Source of the DNA: Arcobacter sp. F2176
GTDB lineage: Bacteria > Campylobacterota > Campylobacteria > Campylobacterales > Arcobacteraceae
Length of the DNA: 64,000 nucleotides
Direction: 5' to 3'
Assembly (NCBI RefSeq): GCF_004116465.1
Contig: NZ_PDJV01000008.1
Coordinates: 62,001 to 126,000 of the forward strand
The translations under genes and the position numbers were made by a program. The notes beneath the pieces were generated by a model. The model did not search any database. It had not been told where the DNA came from and saw nothing but the letters and a program-made list of their open reading frames with translations. Position 1 is the first letter of the stretch. Every line of letters starts with the position of its first letter. Shown piece after piece: positions 3-15,865 of this stretch.

Positions 3-374
3 ATAAAGGAATATTTTGAATTACCATATAGAAATATTACAAATCCTAAGATAAATCTTTCAGAGCTAAGAGAAACCATTGCAAAAATAAAAGCAGATAA
101 AGGAGATACTCATTCACTTGATGAAATGACTCTTTTTCAAACATATAAGAGAATGAGAGATATAGAGGAAAATTCTAAAGTTAAAACAAAAAAAGCAAGA
201 CGTAAAAAAAGTTCAAAAAACCATTTAACCAAAAAACTTGAGCAAGAGAAAAAATTAGTGAAAGAAGAGATAGAAGAAAATCAAGAAGAACTTAGTAAAA
301 CAATTGTTAAAAATATAGAGATAGGAACACCAGAATTGTTTAGTTTTGATTTAATAGAGGAGGATGAAGTATGA
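3..374 (+). CDS. TnsB/TniA-like transposase, C-terminal fragment (5' end outside window)
   Basis: The frame is open to the left edge, so the first in-window ATG (126) is not the real start. The visible part begins with a segment containing LPYRN and ends with a charged tail rich in Lys and Glu. A short hydrophobic/acidic C-terminus follows. This fits the end of TnsB/TniA (Mu/retroviral integrase-type DDE transposases): a beta-barrel remnant, then a basic linker (KKARRKK), then the tail that contacts TnsC. The catalytic DDE domain lies outside the window. The stop overlaps the next gene by 4 nt (ATGA), showing translational coupling. Identification rests on this C-terminal pattern and the tniB-tniQ neighbours. 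Confidence 0.75.
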   Translation: MKEYFELPYRNITNPKINLSELRETIAKIKADKGDTHSLDEMTLFQTYKRMRDIEENSKVKTKKARRKKSSKNHLTKKLEQEKKLVKEEIEENQEELSKTIVKNIEIGTPELFSFDLIEEDEV

Positions 375-1228
375 ATGAAAATTTATCTCCTCAGCTAAAA
401 AAATATCTTGATTTAAGTGATGAAGAAAGAATCTTTTTTATTCAAAAAGATAAATGGATTGATTATCCTGATGCAAATAAAATATTGGCAAAAATTGAAG
501 ATATATACAATGCTCCTAAAAGTATAAGAAGTAGAGGGATGCTTTTGTATGGAGATAGCAACAATGGGAAATCAGCTATTTTAAAACGTTTTTACAGAAA
601 ATTTGCAAAAGATGAGTATATAGATGAAGATGGAGATTTAATTCACTTGATGCCTCTTGTATATGTCATAGCTGAAGCCTCTTCTGATGAGTCAATAATG
701 TTTACTGAAATCTTATCAAGTATGAATGTTCCAGTGAATCATAAAGAGAAAGTCTCAAAGAAAAAGGAAGAGGCAGTTTTTTATTTAAATTTGATGAAAA
801 CAAAATTGATAATAATAGATGAGATTCAAAATGTACTACATGGTCCACATAATAAAATGGCTCAACTTATTACCTCCCTTAAAACATTAAATAATAAAAC
901 AGGAATACCTATAATCCTTGCAGGTACTCAAGATGCTATGTCTGCCATATCAATTGATAATCAAACAAAATCAAGATTTAAACCTTATGAATTACCACTA
1001 TGGAATAATGATGAAAACTTCTTAAGGTTTATTGCTACTATGGAAGCTATGTTACCATTAAAAAAAGCATCAAATATATTTAAAAATTATGAATTACTAA
1101 GTTATCTTCATGGACTATCAAAAGGATGTATTGGAGAAGCAATAGATATTTTAAAAGATGCTTCAATTTATGCTATTAGAACAAAAAGTGAAAGAATTAC
1201 AAAAAAAGAGATAAAGGAGTCGTTATGA
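371..1228 (+). CDS. tniB: TniB/TnsC-like AAA+ transposition ATPase
   Basis: This 285-residue protein is the AAA+ regulator that links target selection (TniQ) to the transposase. Walker A is GDSNNGKS at about residues 61-68. Walker B is LIIIDE at about 146-151, followed by IQNVLHG, typical of TniB/TnsC. A sensor-like segment (IPIILAGTQDA) follows. The length matches Tn5053 TniB and the short TnsC class rather than the roughly 550-residue TnsC of Tn7 itself. The start overlaps the transposase stop (ATGA). The stop overlaps the ATG of tniQ in the same way, so the three genes form one translationally coupled unit. Confidence 0.9.
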   Translation: MNENLSPQLKKYLDLSDEERIFFIQKDKWIDYPDANKILAKIEDIYNAPKSIRSRGMLLYGDSNNGKSAILKRFYRKFAKDEYIDEDGDLIHLMPLVYVIAEASSDESIMFTEILSSMNVPVNHKEKVSKKKEEAVFYLNLMKTKLIIIDEIQNVLHGPHNKMAQLITSLKTLNNKTGIPIILAGTQDAMSAISIDNQTKSRFKPYELPLWNNDENFLRFIATMEAMLPLKKASNIFKNYELLSYLHGLSKGCIGEAIDILKDASIYAIRTKSERITKKEIKESL

Positions 1229-2405
1229 TCTCAAAAAAGAACTAAACTATCCATTTCAAATACATTTACACCCTTTAGAAGATGAACTTTTAAGCTCATG
1301 GCTAACAAGAATGGCTCATGCCCATTATATGTATCCTACAACCTTTTTAAATTTGCATATTAAAAATACAAGAAAAAATTCATATACTCGTAAAGACTTA
1401 GATTTTTATGACAATCAAGAGTTTTTTGATTTGTTAGCTATGAAGAGTATTTTGACAAAAGAAGAGCTACATAAGATATCTTTACGAAGTCAAGAAGGCT
1501 ATCTTTTTATAAATCAAAGTTTATATCCTCCACAGCAAATAAGAAGACTAATAGATAAAAGAACACACTTTGGCTTGATGTACTGCCCTAAATGTTTAGA
1601 AACCGATGAAATACCTTATTGGAGAAAGAAGTGGAGATACTTTTTTTATACAGCTTGTCCTAAACATAAGATTTTTTTAACTGATAGATGTTGGCATTGT
1701 TATAAACCAATAAAACTTTTAAAGACGGAATTAACGGATAAGATAAAATACTGTAGCAATTGTGGTGCAGATTTAGGTTTGACTGATACACATCAAGATA
1801 ATATCCCCGATGATTATGGCTTAGAAGCTATAAGATGGTTTGAAGAGGGTTTAGAAAGAGGATATTTTGAGATAAATGGACAAAAAGTTTGGTCTGTAAT
1901 GTTTTTTCATATCTTTTGTAGATTATATTATCTGTTAGATAGAAAACAAGATTTAGTTTTAAAAAACTTTTCAAAACTAGACGAATATAAATTAATATGC
2001 AAAAAATTAGAGGTTTATAATTCAAAAAAAGCAAGTGCTATTTATAAAACTTTTTATGTAAATAGTATGATTTATCATCTATTCAAAAACTTTCCTTTTA
2101 ACTTTTTAGATTTTATTCAATCTAATCATTTAACATATAAAGAGTTCACTCATGGACTTAAATATATACCTTATTGGTATGAACGAATGTTAAAAGAACT
2201 TATTCCTAAAGAAAATAAAAGTGGAAGAATAATTAGTGAAAGTGAAGTAATTGGTGCGATAAATTATTTAGAAAGACAAGATAAAATTGTAAATCAGAAA
2301 AATGTAGCCGAAATTGTAGGTTGCCATTTTACAATTCATAAGGGATTTGTAAAAATTTATAAAAATTCACAAAGTAAAATTTGTTTTACGTTTTCTCCAT
2401 CTTGA
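1225..2405 (+). CDS. tniQ: TniQ target-selection protein; frame broken by -1 at an A-AAA-AAG heptamer
   Basis: TniQ proteins choose the target and recruit the TniB/TnsC ATPase. From 1239 on, the frame gives a typical TniQ N-terminus (LSSWLTRMAHAH). Two zinc knuckles follow (CPKC with CPKH; CWHC with CSNC), then a C-terminal helix-turn-helix-like region. No ATG exists in this frame before 1311, and starting there would delete the conserved N-terminus. A start with a good ribosome-binding site (AAGGAG at 1214-1219) lies at 1225 in another frame: ATG ATC TCA AAA AAG AAC TAA. A -1 slip at 1233-1239 joins the two frames into a product of about 393 residues, close to Tn5053 TniQ. The break could be programmed frameshifting, a homopolymer mutation, or a sequencing error. 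Confidence 0.85.
1233..1239 (+). other. Candidate -1 ribosomal frameshift heptamer A-AAA-AAG at start of tniQ
   Basis: In the frame set by ATG 1225, the codons read TCA AAA AAG AAC TAA. The heptamer A AAA AAG is the X-XXY-YYZ slippery sequence used in E. coli dnaX and in many IS3-family transposases. A Shine-Dalgarno-like AGGAG lies 13 nt upstream, the kind of spacing that stimulates -1 slippage. After the slip, the first codon (GAA at 1239) is in the TniQ frame and the zero frame stops at 1243. I saw no strong downstream stem-loop. Confidence 0.55.
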
Positions 2406-5348
2406 AACTTCATAACCTATAGGAAGGGGTTTAAACTTAGGATTTAGAGAAGACTTTTTTTGTCTTTGAAATCTTCTTAATTCATCAAAGTTAATACTCC
2501 CTAAAACATAAAAGTCACTAATTCCCCCTTTTACACGAATTAAATCTCTTTTATAGGATTCCTTAAAAGGAACTCTTATTCTACTGTCACCATATGTTCT
2601 ATTGTTTATTTGTATAACAAATGAATGTAAATCATATGCAGTAGATTCTATTAGGGAATTAAATGTTTCAATATCTGAATTCCATTCTAAAATAAATAAA
2701 CCATCAATTTTACCTTGAAAAAAAGATCTATTTAGAATATTTGTAAGATCACTGCATATCAATAATCCAAAATAAAATTCACCATGTTTATAAATTGGAA
2801 GGTTTGTATTGGAAATTGGTGGTTCATATAGTTTTTTACTTTGTGTAGTTAAGTATTTTTTTTCAGCTAATGCTGGTTTTAACTTTGATTGTAAATAAAT
2901 TAAATTAGTTTTATATCCTGGCCAATCAGTAACTAGGGATAGTAAACTATCATTCTTCAAACCTTTTATTTTAGGTTCTGAATAATATTCTAAGCCACAT
3001 ATTAATGAAATTCCATGTTGGGCAAGCTTATATGCTATACTGAAGGCCCATCTTCTTGGTATACTACATTCAGGAAAAGTTATATAATTAATTTTGTTCT
3101 TTTCTTTTAGTATTTTATTAATTAATTGCGTTAGATTTGAGTATCTTTGAACAGACCTATCGGGGGTACCTTTTACAACAGCTTCCCATTGCTTATCCTC
3201 TGTTTTATAACTTGTTAAAGCAACAATAATTTGTTTATTTATAATTTTATTTGGAATATTAAGGAGTAATGTCTCATCCAAAGCTGAAAAGCCTATAATC
3301 TCATCACTTTTAACTCCTGCACCTCTTAATCCTAAGATAGCTCTTTTTAAGAGGCTTCTATTATGTAGTGTTTCTGGAATTATTAGTATAATTTCTTGTA
3401 GGGTTAGAGGTCTTGTGGGGAAGGTTAATGCTTTCCAATGAGGTATTTTTAAATTTGCAGCCTCTCTAAAGTACCTTATAGAAGCGAGTTTAAGTATTTT
3501 TTGAATAGATCTTCTTTTTGGTATATCTTTATCCTTCGCATCTTCAGTTTGAGAGTAATACCAATATTCTTTATATGGACGTTTCCCTAAATCTTTAATT
3601 AATAAGGTATTACTTAGTTTTTTTATAGAGTCTCTTCTAGAAGGAAGATTTTTATCTTGAGTAATATTTTGTAGCTTGCGTATAATTCTCCCAAGTTTCG
3701 TCCATTCCTCAAAGCCTTTAACTGTTGAAGAAACAAAAGCAGTTTCTATAAGGACTTTAACCATATATTGTTTATAGCTATTAAATTTAATTTGTATATC
3801 TGTTTTATCATCTGTAGTTTCTTCAAGGAGTTGAAAGGTAAAGATTAAATTATCGATAAACTCTGAAGCTTCTTTTAAATCATTACAAGCAATCATAATA
3901 GAGAATATTCTATTGTAATATCCTGTATAATCAAAAATACCTGAAGGTGCTAAGAGATATCTATTTATTAGAGTATAAAATTTTACTCTCAAATCTTTCC
4001 AATTACTTGATTTTAAGTCTTTTGCATAAGATTCAATATCTTTTAATAATAGTGAAAAGCCTAGCCTTTTTATAGAAACTACATCTGTTTTTCTAAGTGC
4101 ATCTGCTTCAAGGCTAGCATCTGCTGTACTAAGTAATGCTCTTGCTGCCATTTCAGAAGTTGAATCAGGTAGATTAGCTAATAAGCGATATTCACTAGAT
4201 TGAAGTTTAATTTGCTTATTAATATTATTGATTAAATCAAGACCATGTTCACTAGATAAATAGAATATTTTTTGCTTATCACTACCAAAAATTAAGGTTG
4301 AATCTAAACTATACTGAAAGTTAATTGTTAAACTATCATTATTTTTTTGCAAACATGGTATATTGGTAGTTATCCAATTCATTAGATTTTCTGCATTTTG
4401 AATCTCTTGGGGAGAATTAATAACTAAAAAAATATCATCTACATATCTACCATAGTAGAGAGGGTTAATGTGTTCGTTAATTTGCTTATCAAATTCATAT
4501 AATAAAATATTTGAGATTATTTTTGAAGCAGAAAGTCCTACGGGCAATGCACCCTCTGTTCGAGAATCGTAATCTGGAGTGTATTTATACCAAGTGTTCA
4601 TGGCACTAATAATTTCTTCTGTCAATAATTTACTATTTGTATCTAAAGTTACCCCAATAATCTTTAGAAATGTTGGGGCTAAAATAAAATTTGGACTTAC
4701 ATTATGATAAAATCTTGATAAATCCATTGTAATTGCATGAATATTCAATCCCTTTTCTACAGATATTTTCATTGTATCGAGACCTTTTTCTCTCCACTTC
4801 TTGTATGCTGAAAAATATGGTTGAAATAATCCTAAGGTATCTGTGTTAATTTCGCCTATCTCATCAGTTTTTTCTTTATATCTTCTAAGTCTATTTCCAT
4901 AGGTAAAGTTTTTATTAAGTTTTTCTTCAAATAGGTGACCTACTTTTAGAATCCAAAGGCTTGAAATAATATGAAAATTAACAGATGCATCAATGACTAA
5001 TCTATATGTAGTTTCGAGTTTTTTTTTGTTATTTAAATCAAATTGTCTGGACCAGTTTTCAAAAGGATCAAGACCTACATAGTGGCTTTTTTCTTGCCAA
5101 TTTGAAGTATTGATTGATTTAGGCATATAAAGGGAGTTTCCTAAGTATTCTTTATCTAAATGCCATAGTGTTTCTTTATCTTGTAATTTTTTTTGTAATT
5201 TTTTTAGGTTATTATCCAAATTTTCTTCATATTTGGCGAATGAAATGGAAGTTGGATGGTTACCATCATAAAAAGATTCAACTTTTGCTTTTTTGTAAGC
5301 TAAGTAGAGATCTGCTAATGTAATAAAATTATTAGAATATTTTTTCAT
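2367..5348 (-). CDS. Reverse transcriptase-nitrilase fusion, class 1 defence RT (DRT1-like)
   Basis: The 993-residue protein has an N-terminal reverse transcriptase with motif A (MDLSRFYHNV, about 208-217), motif B (ALPVGLSASKIISN) and the catalytic YVDD box at about 302-305. A long helical middle follows. The C-terminal third resembles the nitrilase/C-N hydrolase fold: FPECS supplies the catalytic Glu and LLICSDL the catalytic Cys. RT plus nitrilase is the architecture of DRT type 1 (UG1-like) anti-phage systems. The start at 5348 is preferred over an upstream in-frame start at 5441 because it lies 10 nt after the NurA-like stop. The 3' end overlaps tniQ, convergently, by 39 bp. No group II intron maturase features or retron msr/msd are evident. 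Confidence 0.85.
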   Translation of the reverse strand: MKKYSNNFITLADLYLAYKKAKVESFYDGNHPTSISFAKYEENLDNNLKKLQKKLQDKETLWHLDKEYLGNSLYMPKSINTSNWQEKSHYVGLDPFENWSRQFDLNNKKKLETTYRLVIDASVNFHIISSLWILKVGHLFEEKLNKNFTYGNRLRRYKEKTDEIGEINTDTLGLFQPYFSAYKKWREKGLDTMKISVEKGLNIHAITMDLSRFYHNVSPNFILAPTFLKIIGVTLDTNSKLLTEEIISAMNTWYKYTPDYDSRTEGALPVGLSASKIISNILLYEFDKQINEHINPLYYGRYVDDIFLVINSPQEIQNAENLMNWITTNIPCLQKNNDSLTINFQYSLDSTLIFGSDKQKIFYLSSEHGLDLINNINKQIKLQSSEYRLLANLPDSTSEMAARALLSTADASLEADALRKTDVVSIKRLGFSLLLKDIESYAKDLKSSNWKDLRVKFYTLINRYLLAPSGIFDYTGYYNRIFSIMIACNDLKEASEFIDNLIFTFQLLEETTDDKTDIQIKFNSYKQYMVKVLIETAFVSSTVKGFEEWTKLGRIIRKLQNITQDKNLPSRRDSIKKLSNTLLIKDLGKRPYKEYWYYSQTEDAKDKDIPKRRSIQKILKLASIRYFREAANLKIPHWKALTFPTRPLTLQEIILIIPETLHNRSLLKRAILGLRGAGVKSDEIIGFSALDETLLLNIPNKIINKQIIVALTSYKTEDKQWEAVVKGTPDRSVQRYSNLTQLINKILKEKNKINYITFPECSIPRRWAFSIAYKLAQHGISLICGLEYYSEPKIKGLKNDSLLSLVTDWPGYKTNLIYLQSKLKPALAEKKYLTTQSKKLYEPPISNTNLPIYKHGEFYFGLLICSDLTNILNRSFFQGKIDGLFILEWNSDIETFNSLIESTAYDLHSFVIQINNRTYGDSRIRVPFKESYKRDLIRVKGGISDFYVLGSINFDELRRFQRQKKSSLNPKFKPLPIGYEVSRWRKRKTNFTL

Positions 5349-5358
5349 TTCTTCGCAC

Positions 5359-6771
5359 TTATATAGTTTTAGAGTTACTAATTGACTCTTTTGTAAATAG
5401 TGTAAGCATTTTATTACTTGGAATATCTGAAAGTGACACAAGTTTATTTATTAGAGTAACTGGAATAAAAGCTCTATTATACATATCACACCGAAGTTCA
5501 CAAAGTATATTAATCATTGTTTTAAGATTTAAGAAATCTTCAACATTTGGGTTATTAATATATTTTATATAATCCATACATTTATTATTTTCACTAATGC
5601 AAGGAAGAGGAAAATCTACTACAAAGGATAAACTATTGTCAAGTTTATACATCATCTTTGTACCAAAATAAGTATTCTCACCAAAGACAGTTGACGTATC
5701 TCCTGTTATGTATTTTTTTATATATTTTAAGTTAGGTAAAACAAGAGTGTTATTTTTAATTTTATTTTCCATATTAGAAAGATGTTCAATAAACATACCA
5801 CTCTTTTCTAATCCTACGATATTTACAAAACTTCTTTTACCTTTAATCGATGCTTTATATAAAGTTTGAATAAAAGGTCTTACTACATATTTATTAAAAT
5901 CATCTAGCCTACTATATAAAGCTAAAGAACCATCTTTTATAAACATGCACTTTGCTAATTCTTGTGCTTTTTTATTTTCATGGGCTACCCTAAAAAAAGT
6001 TAAAATCAAACAGACTTCAAAAACACTCATTAAATAAGAAACTATACCTGTTGCACCATTAAAATCATCAACTAAATCATGTAAACTAAAAATATCTGTA
6101 AAATATATTATTTCTCCGCAATCACACTTAATAGTATCGTTAATACAATCATCATAGGTTGATTTTTTTTTAAAGGCTACTCTACTTTTACAATTATGGC
6201 AAGTTACACTAATTTCACCTTTACCTTTATTCTCATGACTAAGATATTCTTTAAAAGTAAGCCATTTAACAGTATTTAAAAGAGTACTTTTTGAATCTCT
6301 ATCAGTTAATTTATTTTCAAGAAAAATTTTGAAAATAGTTTCTCTTATTGTATTAACAAAGGTTCCTGTTTTAAATTTTATTATTTTAACAGGAAGCACA
6401 AAATGATATTTATATAAATTTTTTAATTTTCCAATATCATCAGGATCAATAGTTTGTTGTTCATTTAAGGTTTTAAGTAATTTTCTATCAAAGTATAAAA
6501 AGCCTAAACTATAATATGCAAGTTGAGCAGAAGGATAGTTGTCTTTTATCGTAACTATTTGATAGCCTCCATCTACAACGAAGATTTGTTCTATGTCTGA
6601 TTCCACTTTATCTTCTATAGTTGAAAAATCTGTACTAAATTCTTTAAGATCAAGATCTGATAAATGTTCAACATCAGGTATATAACAATTTTTTAAGTAG
6701 TCTTGAACCTTTTTATCATTAATAATATATTGATGATTAAATTTTGATGCTTTTTCCCCTGGTTGTCCCAT
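5359..6771 (-). CDS. NurA-like nuclease with zinc-finger insertion
   Basis: Seen: VDGG near residue 70, an IKDGSLALYSRL segment in the middle, a GLEKSGMF segment, and an N-R-A-F-I-P region near the C-terminus. These match the order of conserved acidic motifs in NurA, the 5'-3' DNA nuclease that partners HerA. A four-cysteine element (CHNC then CDC, about residues 190-220) is inserted between them and could bind zinc. ATG 6771 is chosen over a TTG at 6783 because it directly follows the HerA stop (TAA-C-ATG) and has GAGG upstream. At 470 residues it is longer than archaeal NurA. The adjacent HerA-like translocase supports the call. Confidence 0.65.
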   Translation of the reverse strand: MGQPGEKASKFNHQYIINDKKVQDYLKNCYIPDVEHLSDLDLKEFSTDFSTIEDKVESDIEQIFVVDGGYQIVTIKDNYPSAQLAYYSLGFLYFDRKLLKTLNEQQTIDPDDIGKLKNLYKYHFVLPVKIIKFKTGTFVNTIRETIFKIFLENKLTDRDSKSTLLNTVKWLTFKEYLSHENKGKGEISVTCHNCKSRVAFKKKSTYDDCINDTIKCDCGEIIYFTDIFSLHDLVDDFNGATGIVSYLMSVFEVCLILTFFRVAHENKKAQELAKCMFIKDGSLALYSRLDDFNKYVVRPFIQTLYKASIKGKRSFVNIVGLEKSGMFIEHLSNMENKIKNNTLVLPNLKYIKKYITGDTSTVFGENTYFGTKMMYKLDNSLSFVVDFPLPCISENNKCMDYIKYINNPNVEDFLNLKTMINILCELRCDMYNRAFIPVTLINKLVSLSDIPSNKMLTLFTKESISNSKTI

Positions 6772-6772
6772 G

Positions 6773-8743
6773 TTATACCTCAAATCTTTTGATTTGTACA
6801 GGGATAATAAAATTATTAGAATAAGTTTTTATTCTAGCATATCCTACATCACTATTTTTCATAATACTATCACTAAAATCACCAAAATCATAATATTTTT
6901 CTAAAGCTCTTAATTCATCCCTATTATTAAGATGAGAAATAAACCAATTTTGTGTATTTTTTAAGATACTTGAAGAAATTGAACTAACTTCTTGAGTAGA
7001 GTAACTAATACCAAGTTTTAGTTTTGCCCCCTCTTTGGCTAATCTATTGTAAATACTTTTTAAATCTTTATCATCTTTTGGAAAGATATTATGTGCCTCT
7101 TCAAAATACATCTGTATAAATTCAGGTTCTATATCCTCTGTAAATTTATTCATGGATTCATTAAAAATATGAGTACAAAGTCTTGTGATATAAGTCTTTT
7201 GAATTTGTTCACTAGCACTTGATAAATCCACTAGAACAATTTTTCCTTCTCTTAACAGTTTATCTATCTCAATTTTATAATCACTATCCCCATTAGTTGA
7301 GTGCAATTTAGAATATTCTAATAAAATTTTATAACCGCCACCTCTATTGGCGAGGAGCATATTATATAAAGCTTCATAATCTCTATCCCAAACATCTAAA
7401 CTTGTACTTTTTGATTTTACAGTTTGCATTAATTCATAATTAGTTTCAAACCATTTATCTGCATCTTTAATAGAAATTCCATCATTACTAATAGAGGCTC
7501 CATCTATACCTTTAAAATAAAGTTTGTAATTTTGATTAACTTTAAAGCCAGCTCTGTATAAAATACATTTGTATAGAGCAATTTTTCTAAGCCTATTACT
7601 TTTATAAAAAGATTTTTCTTTTTCATTTTTTTCAATATCATCTTCATCATAAGTATCAAATAATTTAACATTTTTAAAAGCACTTACATATTGTTTATCT
7701 TGAAACATCAATTGTTCACATAAAAAATCAAAGGTAAATTCTAACATAGAGTTATTGTAAAAATTATACTGCAAAGCTCTAACATCTGCATATTTATCAA
7801 CTTTTTTAGGAGATACAGAATACCTGATAACTGTTCCATTTGTACTAAATTTATCATAAATAGAACCAACATCTTGTTTATTAGGAAAAGTATATTCACC
7901 GTTTATGTCAAAGACAATTTGCCCTATAGCTTTTTTAAAGTTTTCACTTTCAGTTGTTAGTTGCTTTGTTTTATTGTGCTCGATAAATTTTTTATTTAAA
8001 TCAACTATAGCACTCATTACTATTTTAATAGTATTTGATTTACCAGTTCTTGTCATACCAAAGAATGCTGTTCTTCTTGCAACGATATCATTTGGTTTTA
8101 TGACAACAGGAACTGAATAATCACCTTGATTTAATAAAGTATAGGATTTACTTGAAGAGTACCTAAGATCTCCAATTTTTACCTCTAGATTAATTTCATC
8201 AGTGTCTTTTTCATTTTTAGAGTTTACAATCTTTGCTAGTTGTTCATTAGAGGGTTTAAATACTTTATATTTGTGTGCCCCTAAAAAGTTTTCAAGGTCT
8301 GTTCCAAATTTTAACTCTTTTTCTTCAAAAAAGAAAGTACCTAAAATTCTACAGTTCAAACCTGAAAATTGATAATAATTTTTAGTATAAACATCAGGAG
8401 ACAAATTCTTTCTAGCTTCAGGTTGTTCCATATAAGTGTCAATCATAGCTTCAATTATCATACTTGATTGAGGAATTTTCGCAATATCTACAACTCTCAA
8501 TAAAATTCCCTCTTTAGAATATTTTGATAGTTCATTATTATAAATTGCAATTAAGAAGGTACCATGAGGGAGCCCTTTTACATTAAGTTTCCATTTGTCA
8601 TTAGTAAGAATTTTTGCATTATTGTAATCTACTTCGTATGTAAACCCAACAAATTTTTCATCATTATATTCAATTGATTCGAAAAAACCACCTGCTATTT
8701 CTGATTGAGAATTTTTAGATGTGAGATTATCAAGAAATTCCAT
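6773..8743 (-). CDS. HerA-like hexameric DNA translocase ATPase (DUF87 family)
   Basis: The 656-residue protein has an N-terminal barrel-like region ending in KIGDLRYSSS, then Walker A GMTRTGKS at about 229-236. A Walker B region (FIQMYFEEAHNIFP) follows, then a sensor/arginine-finger region (YSTQEVSSISSSILKNTQN). This is the FtsK/HerA arrangement. HerA forms rings that pump DNA and activate NurA-type nucleases. A strong Shine-Dalgarno (AAGGAGAA) sits just upstream, and the gene is 4 nt from the methyltransferase stop. Next to a methylase, it likely acts as the motor of a restriction-like or phage-exclusion complex. That role is inferred. Confidence 0.85.
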   Translation of the reverse strand: MEFLDNLTSKNSQSEIAGGFFESIEYNDEKFVGFTYEVDYNNAKILTNDKWKLNVKGLPHGTFLIAIYNNELSKYSKEGILLRVVDIAKIPQSSMIIEAMIDTYMEQPEARKNLSPDVYTKNYYQFSGLNCRILGTFFFEEKELKFGTDLENFLGAHKYKVFKPSNEQLAKIVNSKNEKDTDEINLEVKIGDLRYSSSKSYTLLNQGDYSVPVVIKPNDIVARRTAFFGMTRTGKSNTIKIVMSAIVDLNKKFIEHNKTKQLTTESENFKKAIGQIVFDINGEYTFPNKQDVGSIYDKFSTNGTVIRYSVSPKKVDKYADVRALQYNFYNNSMLEFTFDFLCEQLMFQDKQYVSAFKNVKLFDTYDEDDIEKNEKEKSFYKSNRLRKIALYKCILYRAGFKVNQNYKLYFKGIDGASISNDGISIKDADKWFETNYELMQTVKSKSTSLDVWDRDYEALYNMLLANRGGGYKILLEYSKLHSTNGDSDYKIEIDKLLREGKIVLVDLSSASEQIQKTYITRLCTHIFNESMNKFTEDIEPEFIQMYFEEAHNIFPKDDKDLKSIYNRLAKEGAKLKLGISYSTQEVSSISSSILKNTQNWFISHLNNRDELRALEKYYDFGDFSDSIMKNSDVGYARIKTYSNNFIIPVQIKRFEV

Positions 8744-8747
8744 TATA

Positions 8748-10016
8748 TTATGTTCTCCTTTTTAGTATCATAATGCGGTCAACTTCAGTTGCTTTTCCTT
8801 TTTTATTTCCCCATATTTTAGTAACTTTAACTTCCCCATTTTCATTTAGGTTATCTGTAATAATATTCATTAGATTAAGTTTACAGCCACCATTTTTTTG
8901 TATCAAATTCCAAGTTTCCTGGGCAAGATTTAAAGTTTCACCTTTACCTTCATTTACATCTCCAATAACTACAAAAGCATAACCATCTTTTTTTAGTATT
9001 TCGTTCCAACTATTAAAAAGATCCTGCATGTATAGGGCATATTTTACAAGTGATAAATTGTCTGATAAGTTTTGTTTTTGGGTTTTATGGTATATACCAA
9101 CATTTTTATCTACTTTTTCTATATCTTCATCTAGAAGCCATAATCTTATCCAATTATATTTTCCATAATTAATTACTTTTAAATAAGGTGGAGAGGTTAC
9201 AATTAATTTAACACTTTCCTTCCCATATTTAGATTTTATTTTTGCAGAACTTTTAATTGCATCAGCATTAAAACAATACCCTTTAACATAGTTTTTTAAT
9301 GATTTAAAACTATTTTGTTGATCAATTGTATTTGTCGTCTCTTTTAAAATAGTTTCAACTCTATTTTTTATAAGATTAAAAACATTTTGTTTTGGTTTAG
9401 TTAGGCCATGTTTTTTTACAAAGTTTTTTATATAATTAGGAGACATACTAAAAGTATTAGGCATATCAATACTACAGTAGATAGAAGAACCATCTTTTCG
9501 TTGTTTACCGTGCATTAAACCTGTTAATATTGCTAAAATAAAGTTATCAATCTTTTTCTTTTTACTTAATTCTTTTTTTAAATATATTAGCTGAGCTAAA
9601 GTAGTTTCTTCATCGTATAAAATTTTTATGTCTTCAGAAATGTTATTAGTATCAGGTTTTATGTATCTCTTTTCAAGTTCATTAATACGCTTATGGATAT
9701 TTTTAATATTTAAAGGTAAGTTAGCCTTTGCTTTTGTTAAGCATACAGCCAATGGGTTTAAATCATTTCCAATACCAATTCTTCCCAATCTACATGCTTC
9801 AAAGATAGTTGTTCCTCTTCCTGAAAAAGGGTCAAAAACTAAATCATTTTTTTTTGAAAAGTTTTCAATAAAATAGTTTGGTAGGCTAGGTGGAAACATT
9901 GCAAGGTAAGCAGTCATTTGATGAATTTTAGAAAATGTTGAATATGAAAGTGTATTATAAGAAGATGAATTAATATTGTATTTAGAATCTCTAAAATATT
10001 CTGTCTTTATTGTCAT
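8748..10016 (-). CDS. DNA methyltransferase, TSPPY type (N4-cytosine or N6-adenine)
   Basis: The SAM-binding motif FDPFSGRGTT is at about residues 61-70 and the catalytic TSPPYL at about 274-279. The order motif I before motif IV and the DPFSGRGTT wording are typical of solitary or type II-like amino-methyltransferases. TSPPY often indicates N4-cytosine specificity, but N6-adenine cannot be excluded. A target-recognition-like stretch rich in Lys lies between the motifs. The ATG overlaps the upstream stop (TAATG), so it is translationally coupled to the DUF6471-like gene. Its likely job is marking host DNA so that the HerA-NurA pair spares it, which is inferred from context. Confidence 0.85.
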   Translation of the reverse strand: MTIKTEYFRDSKYNINSSSYNTLSYSTFSKIHQMTAYLAMFPPSLPNYFIENFSKKNDLVFDPFSGRGTTIFEACRLGRIGIGNDLNPLAVCLTKAKANLPLNIKNIHKRINELEKRYIKPDTNNISEDIKILYDEETTLAQLIYLKKELSKKKKIDNFILAILTGLMHGKQRKDGSSIYCSIDMPNTFSMSPNYIKNFVKKHGLTKPKQNVFNLIKNRVETILKETTNTIDQQNSFKSLKNYVKGYCFNADAIKSSAKIKSKYGKESVKLIVTSPPYLKVINYGKYNWIRLWLLDEDIEKVDKNVGIYHKTQKQNLSDNLSLVKYALYMQDLFNSWNEILKKDGYAFVVIGDVNEGKGETLNLAQETWNLIQKNGGCKLNLMNIITDNLNENGEVKVTKIWGNKKGKATEVDRIMILKRRT

Positions 10017-12258: not shown

Positions 12259-13953
12259 TTAATGCCAATTAATTATATTTAGTAATCTTAATAACCATCT
12301 CTCCAGAACCTCTTCATGCTCATTTTCATCATTGATTTGAGCATGCCGATGAGTATTAAACTTTAGTGTATTTAAATCATTATAAGTATCTTTTATTTCT
12401 TGTAAAACCTTTTGTTCAGAATATCTCATCTCAAGAGCTTCAGTAATTGCATCTTCAAATATTTCATTTTTTGAAGCAATAACCCAAGTTGCAAAGTCAT
12501 TATGTTCTGACTCTACTTCAATTAAAACTATTTTTATGTCATTGTATTCAAAAGCACAAGTAACATATTGTTTTATTCTGTTATGGATAGAACATTGACT
12601 TGTTAGTTCATCACTTTTTGTATAGCTAACAGGTACATTCTTTGGTATGTCATTATATATAAATTCACTAACAAGATTAGAGTTTTCAATAAATTCAATA
12701 CTTTCTAAAAAGATATCAAAAGTAGGAGGTTTAGAAACTTCATTTTTATTATCATTATCTGTTTCTAATCTTGATTGTTGTGCTGTTTCATCACCAGAGT
12801 TTTCTCCTTTTGAAAAACTTACTGATACTTCACCTTTTTTTTCTTTGTCAGTTACTATAGGTACATTTGGGTTCTCTTCTTCAAGTGAGCCATATGTAAT
12901 ATCTTTATTTATTAATGATAGGTTTTGAGTATTTTCAATTTCTCTAATTTTGTTTGTACCATAAATCAAAGAAGGTGTATCAGTATTAACAGTTTTCTTT
13001 CTTTTTTTAGGTTTTCTACCTTTTATATGCAATCCCTCTTCATCATTTGGATCAATCTTCCTATCTTTTTTCTTTTTCTTTAAAATAGTAAGCTTTTCAA
13101 AATCTAAGGTTGAATCATCATTTTGTATTTCATTTACAAGATAAGTTTTTTTATTGCTAGAACTATCTTCTATTTCAATGTATCGTATTTTGATATTAAA
13201 AATTTCTCTTGTCGGGAATAAGGCTTTTATAGGGATTAAAACCGTAGGCTTTTTATCCATATCATTTTTAGTTTTAAATGCTGAAATATATCTTGAAAAA
13301 TCTACGAAACCTTTTTGTGCAATTTCATCTGTCAAAAATCTATATATAAATGGTCCATCAAGTTTAGAAGCATGTGACTCTAATACTAAGATAGCATCTG
13401 TCTTATCGCCTAGATTTGAATTTACACTATCATATAAAATAAATGGATTTCCTTTATACAAAGACTCTTTCATAGAAGAAGATTTAAAATAGTAATAAAG
13501 TGCTATAACATATGAAGGAATAATATATTTAGCATCTTCATTTTCATGTACATAGCAAAAGTTCCCTCCGTATTTAAAGGCATTAAAATCATTATTACCT
13601 AAAATATATTTGATACTATTTTTTGAAAGTACTTTATAAATAGGTTGTTGTTCTTTCATTTGTAAAGTATCAATTTCAAGATAATCTTCAAACTCATTTA
13701 AATCTTTATTAACGAGTTTACCTTCTTTATAAGTATTTCCTAGTTTAAATTTATATCTTAAAAGTTCTGGGGTGATTTCAACTGTTTCTAGATAGTTAGT
13801 CTTTATGTTTTGGAACTGTACTAAAAAGTTGTGGCTATTTTTATTATTGTGGTTATATTTTAATCCAAGAATAGCATTTAATTTAAAACTAGAATATTGA
13901 CCTTTTTCAGTTTGCATAAAATCAAGGGTCAAATTTCTAGTTGAAGTAGGCAT
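12259..13953 (-). CDS. 564-residue protein with a TnsE-like layout
   Basis: By eye, several stretches line up in order with Tn7 TnsE. One is an IPSYVIALYYYFKSSS helix (TnsE has an IPQLELARSLF-type helix). Another is an IEIEDSSSNKKTYLVNEI strand pair (TnsE has a VKGRSS...YLVEEI-type strand). A Lys-rich then Ser/Glu-rich linker follows (about 290-400), then a C-terminal domain with VLIEVES (TnsE: VLLEVDAS) and a final LERWLLRLL helix. TnsE is 538 residues and directs insertion into replicating DNA. The similarity is weak and remembered, not computed. Against it, the small TniB/TniQ type of element usually lacks TnsE, and the gene is far from tniABQ. It starts 31 bp from the mnmG stop. Confidence 0.45.
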   Translation of the reverse strand: MPTSTRNLTLDFMQTEKGQYSSFKLNAILGLKYNHNNKNSHNFLVQFQNIKTNYLETVEITPELLRYKFKLGNTYKEGKLVNKDLNEFEDYLEIDTLQMKEQQPIYKVLSKNSIKYILGNNDFNAFKYGGNFCYVHENEDAKYIIPSYVIALYYYFKSSSMKESLYKGNPFILYDSVNSNLGDKTDAILVLESHASKLDGPFIYRFLTDEIAQKGFVDFSRYISAFKTKNDMDKKPTVLIPIKALFPTREIFNIKIRYIEIEDSSSNKKTYLVNEIQNDDSTLDFEKLTILKKKKKDRKIDPNDEEGLHIKGRKPKKRKKTVNTDTPSLIYGTNKIREIENTQNLSLINKDITYGSLEEENPNVPIVTDKEKKGEVSVSFSKGENSGDETAQQSRLETDNDNKNEVSKPPTFDIFLESIEFIENSNLVSEFIYNDIPKNVPVSYTKSDELTSQCSIHNRIKQYVTCAFEYNDIKIVLIEVESEHNDFATWVIASKNEIFEDAITEALEMRYSEQKVLQEIKDTYNDLNTLKFNTHRHAQINDENEHEEVLERWLLRLLNIINWH

Positions 13954-13984
13954 TAAATTATCACTAACTAATGTATATTATCAT

Positions 13985-15865
13985 TTACTTTTGTATCTTA
14001 CATTGTAAATTTATATACAAATGAATAACATCAACTGCAGCTGGTGTTATTCCTGAAATTTCTCCTGCATTGAAAAGAGTTGGTGGTCTAAACTTTTCTA
14101 GCTTTTCGATTGCTTCATTTGAAAGTCCAGGGATTTCTTTATAATCAAAATTTTCTGGTATTTTTAATTGAATCATTTTTTTCATTTTTTCTATTTGTTT
14201 TTGTTGTTTTTCAACATATCTATAATATTTCGCTTCAATTATTATTTGCTCTTTTATATAGTTATCTAGCTCTTTAAATTGAGGGCAAAGTTCATCAAAG
14301 TTTTCTGTTGTAACACCATTTCTTCCAACTATATCAAGTAATAAAACTCTATCTTTGATTTTATCTTGTCCAAGTTTTTCTAGAAGTTCTAGATTCTCTT
14401 TTTTTGAAGTAAACCACTCTTCTTTCATAAAATCAATTGCTCCTTTTATACATTTTTCTTTGTATTGTACTTTTTGGATTGTTTCATCACTTATAAGTCC
14501 AATTTTATGACCGTACTCACTAAGTCTTATATCTGCTCCTTCTTCTCTTAGAAGTAGTCTATATTCTGCTCGACTTGTAAACATTCTATATGGTTCAGCT
14601 GTTCCTTTTGTAACTAAATCGTCAATCAAAACACCAATGTATGCTTCATCTCTTCTTAGGATTAAAGGCTCTTTATTATCAATTGCAAGTGAAGCATTGA
14701 TACCAGCCATTAGTCCTTGAGAAGCTGCTTCTTCATATCCTGTAGTAGCATTAATTTGCCCAGCATGATATAGGTTTTTTACTTTTTTAGTTTCAAGGGT
14801 ATGTTTTAGTTCTGTTGGGTCAACATAATCATACTCTATGGCATATCCATATCTCACAATTTTGGCATTTTCTAAACCAGCTATTGAGTGTATCATCTCT
14901 TTTTGAACATCAATTGGCATAGAAGTACTTAATCCATTGATATAATATTCTGTTGCCATTGCAGTTTGAGGCTCTAAAAACAGTTGATGTCTATCTCTCT
15001 CAGAAAATCTATTTACCTTATCTTCAATACTTGGACAGTATCTAGGTCCACTTCCTTTGATTTGTCCAGTAAATAGAGGTGCTCTGTGGAAATTACTGCT
15101 TATTTTCCCATGTGTTCCCAAGTTTGTATATGTGATATAACAAGGGTGTTGTTTTGGGTTAAAAGTTGACTTATCTGTTCTAAATGAGAAAGGAGTTGGT
15201 TTTTCATCTCCTCCATGCTCTTCCATTTTTGAAAAGTCTATTGATTTTGCATCAATTCTTGCAGGTGTTCCTGTTTTTAATCTTCCAACATTTAGTCCAA
15301 ACTCTTTTAGCTGTGTTGATAAAGTAGAAGAGGGTAATTCCCACGCTCTTCCCGCATCATAAGTTGAAGTTCCTATGTGAATAAGACCTTTCATAAATGT
15401 TCCCGTTGTAAGGATTACTTTTTTTGATTCGAACTCTTCACCAAGTTTTGTTTTTACACCACAAACCTCAAGACCATTTTCATCTTTTGTTAAAAGTGAA
15501 CTTACTTCATCTTGATAGATTTCTAGATTTTCTGTATTGTGACATACTTTTCTCATGTATGTTCTATATCTATCCATATCAATTTGTGCACGACTTCCTT
15601 GAACTGCTGCACCTTTAGAAGCGTTTAATATTCTAAATTGAATACCTGCACTATCTGTACAAAGTCCCATCTCTCCACCAAGGGCATCTAATTCTCTTAC
15701 TAAATGTCCTTTTGCCAATCCACCAATAGCGGGGTTACAACTTGCTGCTCCGATTTGTTCAACTAGCATAGTTACAAGAAGAGTTTTTTTACCCATTCTT
15801 GCACTTGCCAATGAGGCTTCAATTCCAGCATGTCCTCCACCGACTACGATTACATCATATTTCAT
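13985..15865 (-). CDS. mnmG: tRNA uridine-5-carboxymethylaminomethyl modification enzyme, FAD subunit
   Basis: MnmG (GidA) works with MnmE to make the cmnm5/nm5 modification at U34 of several tRNAs. The Rossmann FAD motif [11 protein letters not shown] is at the N-terminus, with the signatures [18 protein letters not shown] and [14 protein letters not shown] further on. The C-terminal helical domain is complete. I place the start at ATG 15865, with GGAG just upstream and [11 protein letters not shown] following, rather than at a TTG seven codons earlier (15886). It is 626 residues long, normal for the family. It is divergent from ribE. Accessory DNA begins directly after its stop. Confidence 0.97.

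Follow-up and report, generated by a model that had tools for sequence, protein, structure and literature searches.

Probable expression of tniQ through a conserved −1 programmed ribosomal frameshift in a Tn7-like transposon inserted at mnmG of Arcobacter sp. F2176

Small insertion sequences are well known to set their transposase levels by frameshifting; in IS3/IS911, a shift fuses OrfA to OrfB and thereby yields the transposase. In E. coli, a single tRNA-Lys(UUU) reads both lysine codons, while in prfB the CUU-UUU re-pairs well and is followed by UGA-C. The Tn7-like family of transposons gave rise to CRISPR-associated transposases. The heptamer A_AAA_AAG belongs to the most shift-prone motifs in E. 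coli (PMC4066793; PMC5009743). Shine-Dalgarno (SD) stimulators lie at a distance of 9-14 nt for −1 shifts and of 3 nt for +1 shifts, and for one IS element, IS911, a single SD is reported to serve both initiation and frameshift stimulation (PMC5009743). Our literature search found no description of an mnmG attachment site or of a tniQ frameshift in a Tn7-like element.

In this work, we analysed a 64,000-nucleotide stretch (hereafter, the window) of the Arcobacter sp. F2176 genome (G000). A 17.6-kb Tn7-like transposon, whose left end lies upstream of the window, was delimited here; it is inserted into the mnmG 3′ end and flanked by a TTGTA duplication. The Tn7-like gene set is present and in order: TnsA endonuclease, TniA/TnsB-like transposase, TniB/TnsC-like ATPase and TniQ. 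The element shares with the described Tn7-like transposons (TnsABC + TniQ/TnsD) the gene order, the TGT ends, the duplication of 5 bp, the defence cargo and a fixed site located at the 3′ end of a conserved gene, but differs from them in that the attachment site is mnmG and that tniQ apparently needs a frameshift. The tniB/tniQ junction has the following layout:

371..1228, plus strand: tniB, a TnsC-like AAA ATPase of 285 aa (Pfam TniB, E=1.5e-52); its final TGA, 1226-1228, lies inside the ATGA
1214..1219, plus strand: AAGGAG Shine-Dalgarno with a proposed double role, lying 5 nt upstream of ATG 1225 and 13 nt upstream of the heptamer; identical in 3/3 clade members
1225..1245, plus strand: zero-frame start and six-codon frame MISKKN-TAA (ATG 1225-1227, TAA 1243-1245); MISKKN-stop and MISKKH-stop in the relatives
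1233..1239, plus strand: A_AAA_AAG slippery heptamer in phase with ATG 1225, kept in L004 and L005
1239..2405, plus strand: tniQ coding sequence in the −1 frame, proposed product MISKK + ELNYPFQIHL..., from the frame reading, Pfam and the codon comparison

The tniQ open frame extends over 1215-2405 and, as read directly, is shut on its upstream side by the in-frame TAA 1212. Between this stop and 1311 the frame lacks ATG, GTG and TTG; the only start candidates up to 1311 are ATA 1260 and ATG 1311. The Pfam TniQ match, which starts at open-frame residue 16 (about position 1260), includes ATG 1311, so that a start at 1311 would cut the domain. The sole well-placed start is ATG 1225, which has AAGGAG 5 nt upstream and forms the ATGA overlap with tniB; its own frame reads ATG ATC TCA AAA AAG AAC TAA, that is, six codons (MISKKN*). 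The TniQ frame is −1 with respect to ATG 1225, and A_AAA_AAG, with its A run at 1233-1238 and G1239 as the last base, is in phase with this ATG. A preliminary description of the locus had pointed out both the well-placed start whose frame stops after six codons at TAA 1243 and the TniQ N-terminus lying in the −1 frame right after A-AAA-AAG, and direct reading bears out both, the heptamer ending at G1239.

To find relatives, we used TniQ protein queries against the family (104 genomes), two further families of the order, and samples of the order and class. Within this scope only two homologues were more than 60% identical to TniQ, both from other genera of the same family: L004 in G132 (TniB 91%, TniQ 77% identical) and L005 in G279 (TniB 82%, TniQ 71%). 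Their junctions read AAGGAG-N5-ATGAT[C/T]TCAAAAAAG with TAA two codons further on, which is the same break, and 13 nt separate the SD from the heptamer in each of the three. A maximum-likelihood tree of 42 rows placed the frameshifted TniQs in a single clade (support 100/100), whereas the remaining 39 TniQs, at no more than 58% identity, had an in-frame start. Thus, the break belongs to one clade and not to TniQ generally; clade members beyond the three were absent from the family (104 genomes), the two other families, and the order and class samples. In the sister of the clade, L006 (G128), the in-frame tniQ ATG lies 43 nt inside tniB without a clear SD, and the tniB/tniQ frame relation is that of the frameshift clade. 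The preliminary description had proposed a comparison of homologues and had named relatives with an intact frame as evidence against a shift: break and heptamer proved to be conserved in the two closest relatives, both of other genera, and a single frame was found only at a distance (≤58%).

A homopolymer run is the usual site of sequencing and assembly errors; however, this break recurs in three assemblies of different genera, and a neighbouring run of seven A, located inside tniB about 27 nt upstream of the six-A run, was resolved as seven in two of the three. The slip signal being kept in the two closest relatives, a sequencing error is very unlikely, and we give almost no credence to an artefact or a dead gene at this place. 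Transcriptional slippage, in which RNA polymerase would add an A on the six-A run and produce a single-frame mRNA, is known for IS elements on A runs, but the runs prone to it typically have nine and sometimes eight A (PMC1088944). The run at tniQ has six, while the seven-A run in tniB stays in frame in two of the three clade members, which makes such slippage most improbable here.

In a search of 298 genomes, exact copies of the full motif occurred only at the two homologous tniQ genes. A survey of about 180 kb of these genomes gave 192 SD-ATG matches, of which only eight had an in-phase A_AAA_AAG within the first nine codons; all eight had an early zero-frame stop, and the five listed were tniQ junctions (with double counting). 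The combination of SD-ATG and an in-phase heptamer at tniQ is not due to chance. On the other hand, the viral contigs contained one exact motif match, in an unrelated, ordinary phage gene whose start is ordinary too; the motif is thus no proof in itself, and the argument rests on the missing start and the conservation rather than on the motif. A protein scan of the viral contigs for TniQ gave no match, and the plasmid search returned only distant TniQs (~35% identity and below).

All three clade members keep the TniQ frame open over 387-396 codons, with no other disruption. The NG86 estimates of dN/dS for the three pairs were 0.15/1.03, 0.20/1.12 and 0.20/1.33, showing purifying selection on the −1 frame (dN/dS ~0.15-0.18, dS >1). 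This speaks against a dead gene, as does the apparently recent transposition of the element. Selection also bears on whether TniQ might begin without any frameshift, either at ATG 1311 or from a non-standard codon. All three members keep ATG 1311, but no SD precedes it, a start there would drop the conserved LEDELLSSWLTR at the beginning of the domain, and the 24 codons before it are under coding selection; the non-standard candidate ATA 1260 is GTA in L005. From the heptamer to ATG 1311, the −1 frame had 18 synonymous and 10 non-synonymous differences summed over the pairs, while the other two frames had 5:22 and 2:26. The synonymous excess argues that the stretch before ATG 1311 is translated as TniQ despite having no start, and translation of a stretch that has no start in its own frame almost of necessity implies initiation in another frame followed by a shift. 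The informative comparison for these 24 codons is that of synonymous and non-synonymous changes between frames; a permutation test of third-position bias was not significant (P=0.18), since many of the changes are synonymous first-position changes in Leu codons. We therefore regard initiation at 1311 or at a non-standard codon as exceedingly improbable.

Taken together, the data make it probable that tniQ is expressed via conserved −1 programmed ribosomal frameshifting four codons after initiation. The features of a −1 cassette were found at tniQ: an X_XXY_YYZ site in phase, a downstream frame that is −1, and conservation of the site in the three members. According to the proposed mechanism, ribosomes finishing tniB at TGA 1226 would restart on the overlapping ATG 1225, guided by AAGGAG, and read ATG ATC TCA AAA AAG. 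A fraction of them would then slip back by one base on A_AAA_AAG (1233-1239), where both tRNA-Lys(UUU) could re-pair with AAA, and go on in the TniQ frame to yield MISKK-ELNYPF..., while the non-slipping ribosomes would end at TAA 1243 after six residues. The initiation SD, 13 nt before the heptamer, probably doubles as the slip stimulator. The occurrence of the shift, its rate and the stimulation by the SD are inferred from sequence, and the expected effect would be to keep the amount of the target selector low relative to TniB; a low, fixed TniQ:TniB ratio may limit transposition, as the preliminary description had proposed.

The closest parallel is dnaX of E. coli, which has the same heptamer in the same phase, an upstream SD-like stimulator within the 9-14 nt range, and tRNA-Lys(UUU) only. 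Four tRNA-Lys genes were found in the genome studied here, all with the anticodon UUU, and the spacing of 13 nt at tniQ falls inside the range given for −1 shifts (PMC5009743), in agreement with the SD-like stimulator noted in the preliminary description. The likeness to dnaX/IS3 that it had drawn stands for the heptamer, the SD spacing and the tRNA-Lys set; it does not extend to a downstream stem-loop stimulator. The dnaX shift gives two products, both useful, and is accompanied by a strong 3′ stem-loop; tniQ has a six-residue zero-frame product, and its SD doubles as the start signal. The search for a downstream stem-loop or pseudoknot, which is common in −1 cassettes but not obligatory, revealed none (z ~0 to −1.7, no common stem in the three), and an Rfam search of the window gave no match. 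The junction shares with IS3/IS911 its location in a mobile element and a predicted −1 shift on an A-rich heptamer, but tniQ encodes the probable target selector of a Tn7-like transposon, and the ribosome would slip four codons downstream of the gene's own start.

These genomes do not avoid in-phase A_AAA_AAG (30 occurrences against 22.6 expected), so the bare heptamer is probably only mildly shifty here and a stimulator is probably needed. No candidate other than the initiation SD was found for this role. AAA makes up about 89% of the Lys codons in these genomes, so a conserved AAA AAA is partly expected.

The main rival to the programmed shift is a tolerated indel: the ancestor of the clade would have lost one base in a run of A, and fortuitous slippage on A_AAA_AAG, which was never under selection as a regulator, would make just enough TniQ. 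It differs from the programmed reading only in whether the shift was selected as a control, and our confidence in the two overlaps because the mechanism is common to both. A runs lose bases easily, the product would be that of a seven-A run, and the heptamer is not avoided in coding sequence and has no second stimulator beside it; all this is compatible with a simple loss. However, a six-A run should easily regain its base, and yet the break has been kept in three lineages with dS >1, together with the SD, the spacing and the early stop. We infer from its retention, given how easily it could be mended, that a reduced output of TniQ is at least tolerated. Moreover, the tniB/tniQ frame relation of the clade is also that of L006, which means that this arrangement need not have arisen by simple loss of one base. 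On balance, we consider the tolerated indel possible but clearly the less probable of the two.

A +1 frameshift at the end of tniB (UUA_UGA) would, as in prfB, read through the stop and produce a TniB-TniQ fusion. The likeness to prfB lies in the SD-like AAGGAG 3 nt before the codon preceding UGA, which is exactly the spacing of +1 stimulators (PMC5009743); the step from the TniB to the TniQ frame is indeed +1, and UUA UGA is conserved in 3/3. Nevertheless, re-pairing of tRNA-Leu(UAA) from UUA to UAU would involve two mismatches, as judged from sequence, which is not a slippery codon of the prfB type, and the stop context is UGA-U instead of UGA-C. An ordinary coupled start would have the same SD-ATGA geometry, many homologues combining an ATGA overlap with an in-frame start, and a +1 shift would leave the conserved in-phase heptamer, the ATG and the early stop without explanation. 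The −1 heptamer accounts for TniQ better, and a TniB-TniQ fusion appears very unlikely.

If the −1 shift at tniQ is real, it would represent frameshifting in the target-selection protein of a Tn7-like transposon, where the amount of the target selector itself is held down in translation and one Shine-Dalgarno both starts the gene and causes the slip four codons later. It would also be a warning for annotation, as such tniQ genes may be called pseudogenes or be started too late, at ATG 1311.

The other parts of the element in the window are as follows:

3..374, plus strand: 3′ end of the tniA/TnsB-like transposase gene (632 aa), whose start, G000:C8:60476, lies upstream of the window; matches Mu-transpos_C and, weakly, rve
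2367..5441, minus strand: defence cargo, a DRT-type reverse transcriptase-nitrilase (RT_UG5-nitrilase)
5359..10016, minus strand: cargo, comprising a 474-aa ORF without Pfam match, a HerA/DUF87 ATPase and an N6/N4 DNA methylase
12259..13953, minus strand: 564-aa gene at the right end of the element, within the family present only in the three genomes with a frameshifted tniQ
13975..14002, minus strand: right terminal repeat TGTAAGATACAAAAGTAAATGATAATAT, whose first 18 nt are the last codons of mnmG
14003..14007, no strand: target-site duplication TTGTA, the other copy being at G000:C8:58435-58439

Blind inverted-repeat searches did not find the element ends, which were defined from an empty site in G001, a genome of the same genus whose MnmG is 99% identical; the joined flanks of the G000 element align with this site. 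The left end is TGTGAGATACATTAATTAATGAGAATAT at G000:C8:58440. Both ends are intact, start with TGT and form imperfect inverted repeats (22/28 positions in G000) bordered by the 5-bp target duplication; the G279 element has AAACA on both sides. G001 has no TniQ match and G000 has one TniQ in its genome. A recent insertion in G000 is the simplest reading of the alignment; loss of the element in G001 is possible but less simple. Given the single TniQ of G000 and the clade-wide break, the element with the frameshifted tniQ was probably the one that moved, and a lost element may have helped in trans.

The insertion site is the mnmG 3′ end in all three clade members. In several more distant relatives with an in-frame tniQ, mnmG lies ~1-16 kb from tniQ, and several of these have element-like repeats directly after mnmG, such that mnmG targeting is probably older than the frameshift. 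The mnmG 3′ end seems to serve this Tn7-like group as a standing attachment site, with TniQ probably acting as the target selector. At 13985-14002 of the window, the element supplies the last codons of mnmG (CKIQK*).

The substrates of MnmG/MnmE include tRNA-Lys(UUU), which is the required slipper on A_AAA_AAG. MnmG acts with MnmE to modify the wobble uridine of several tRNAs (PMC9626948). Since the element rewrites the final codons of mnmG, MnmG activity could influence how much TniQ is made; the frameshift would then sense the element's own landing site, and the target gene would feed back on the target selector. Elements of relatives whose tniQ is in frame also lie near mnmG, so the link between mnmG and tRNA-Lys may be mere coincidence, and we hold such a feedback to be very unlikely.

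The 564-aa right-end protein had no match in Pfam, NCBIfam or PDB. In other mnmG elements, the first gene at this position seems to be a different one, and the defence-like cargo differs in the two sister elements. In G132, the best left-end candidate (24/28 positions) was seen left of tnsA (L048/L050), the five flanking bases differing from those at the right end; this copy may be rearranged. Right after mnmG in G198, L109 is a degraded sequence similar to the 564-aa gene and seems to be what a lost element left behind.
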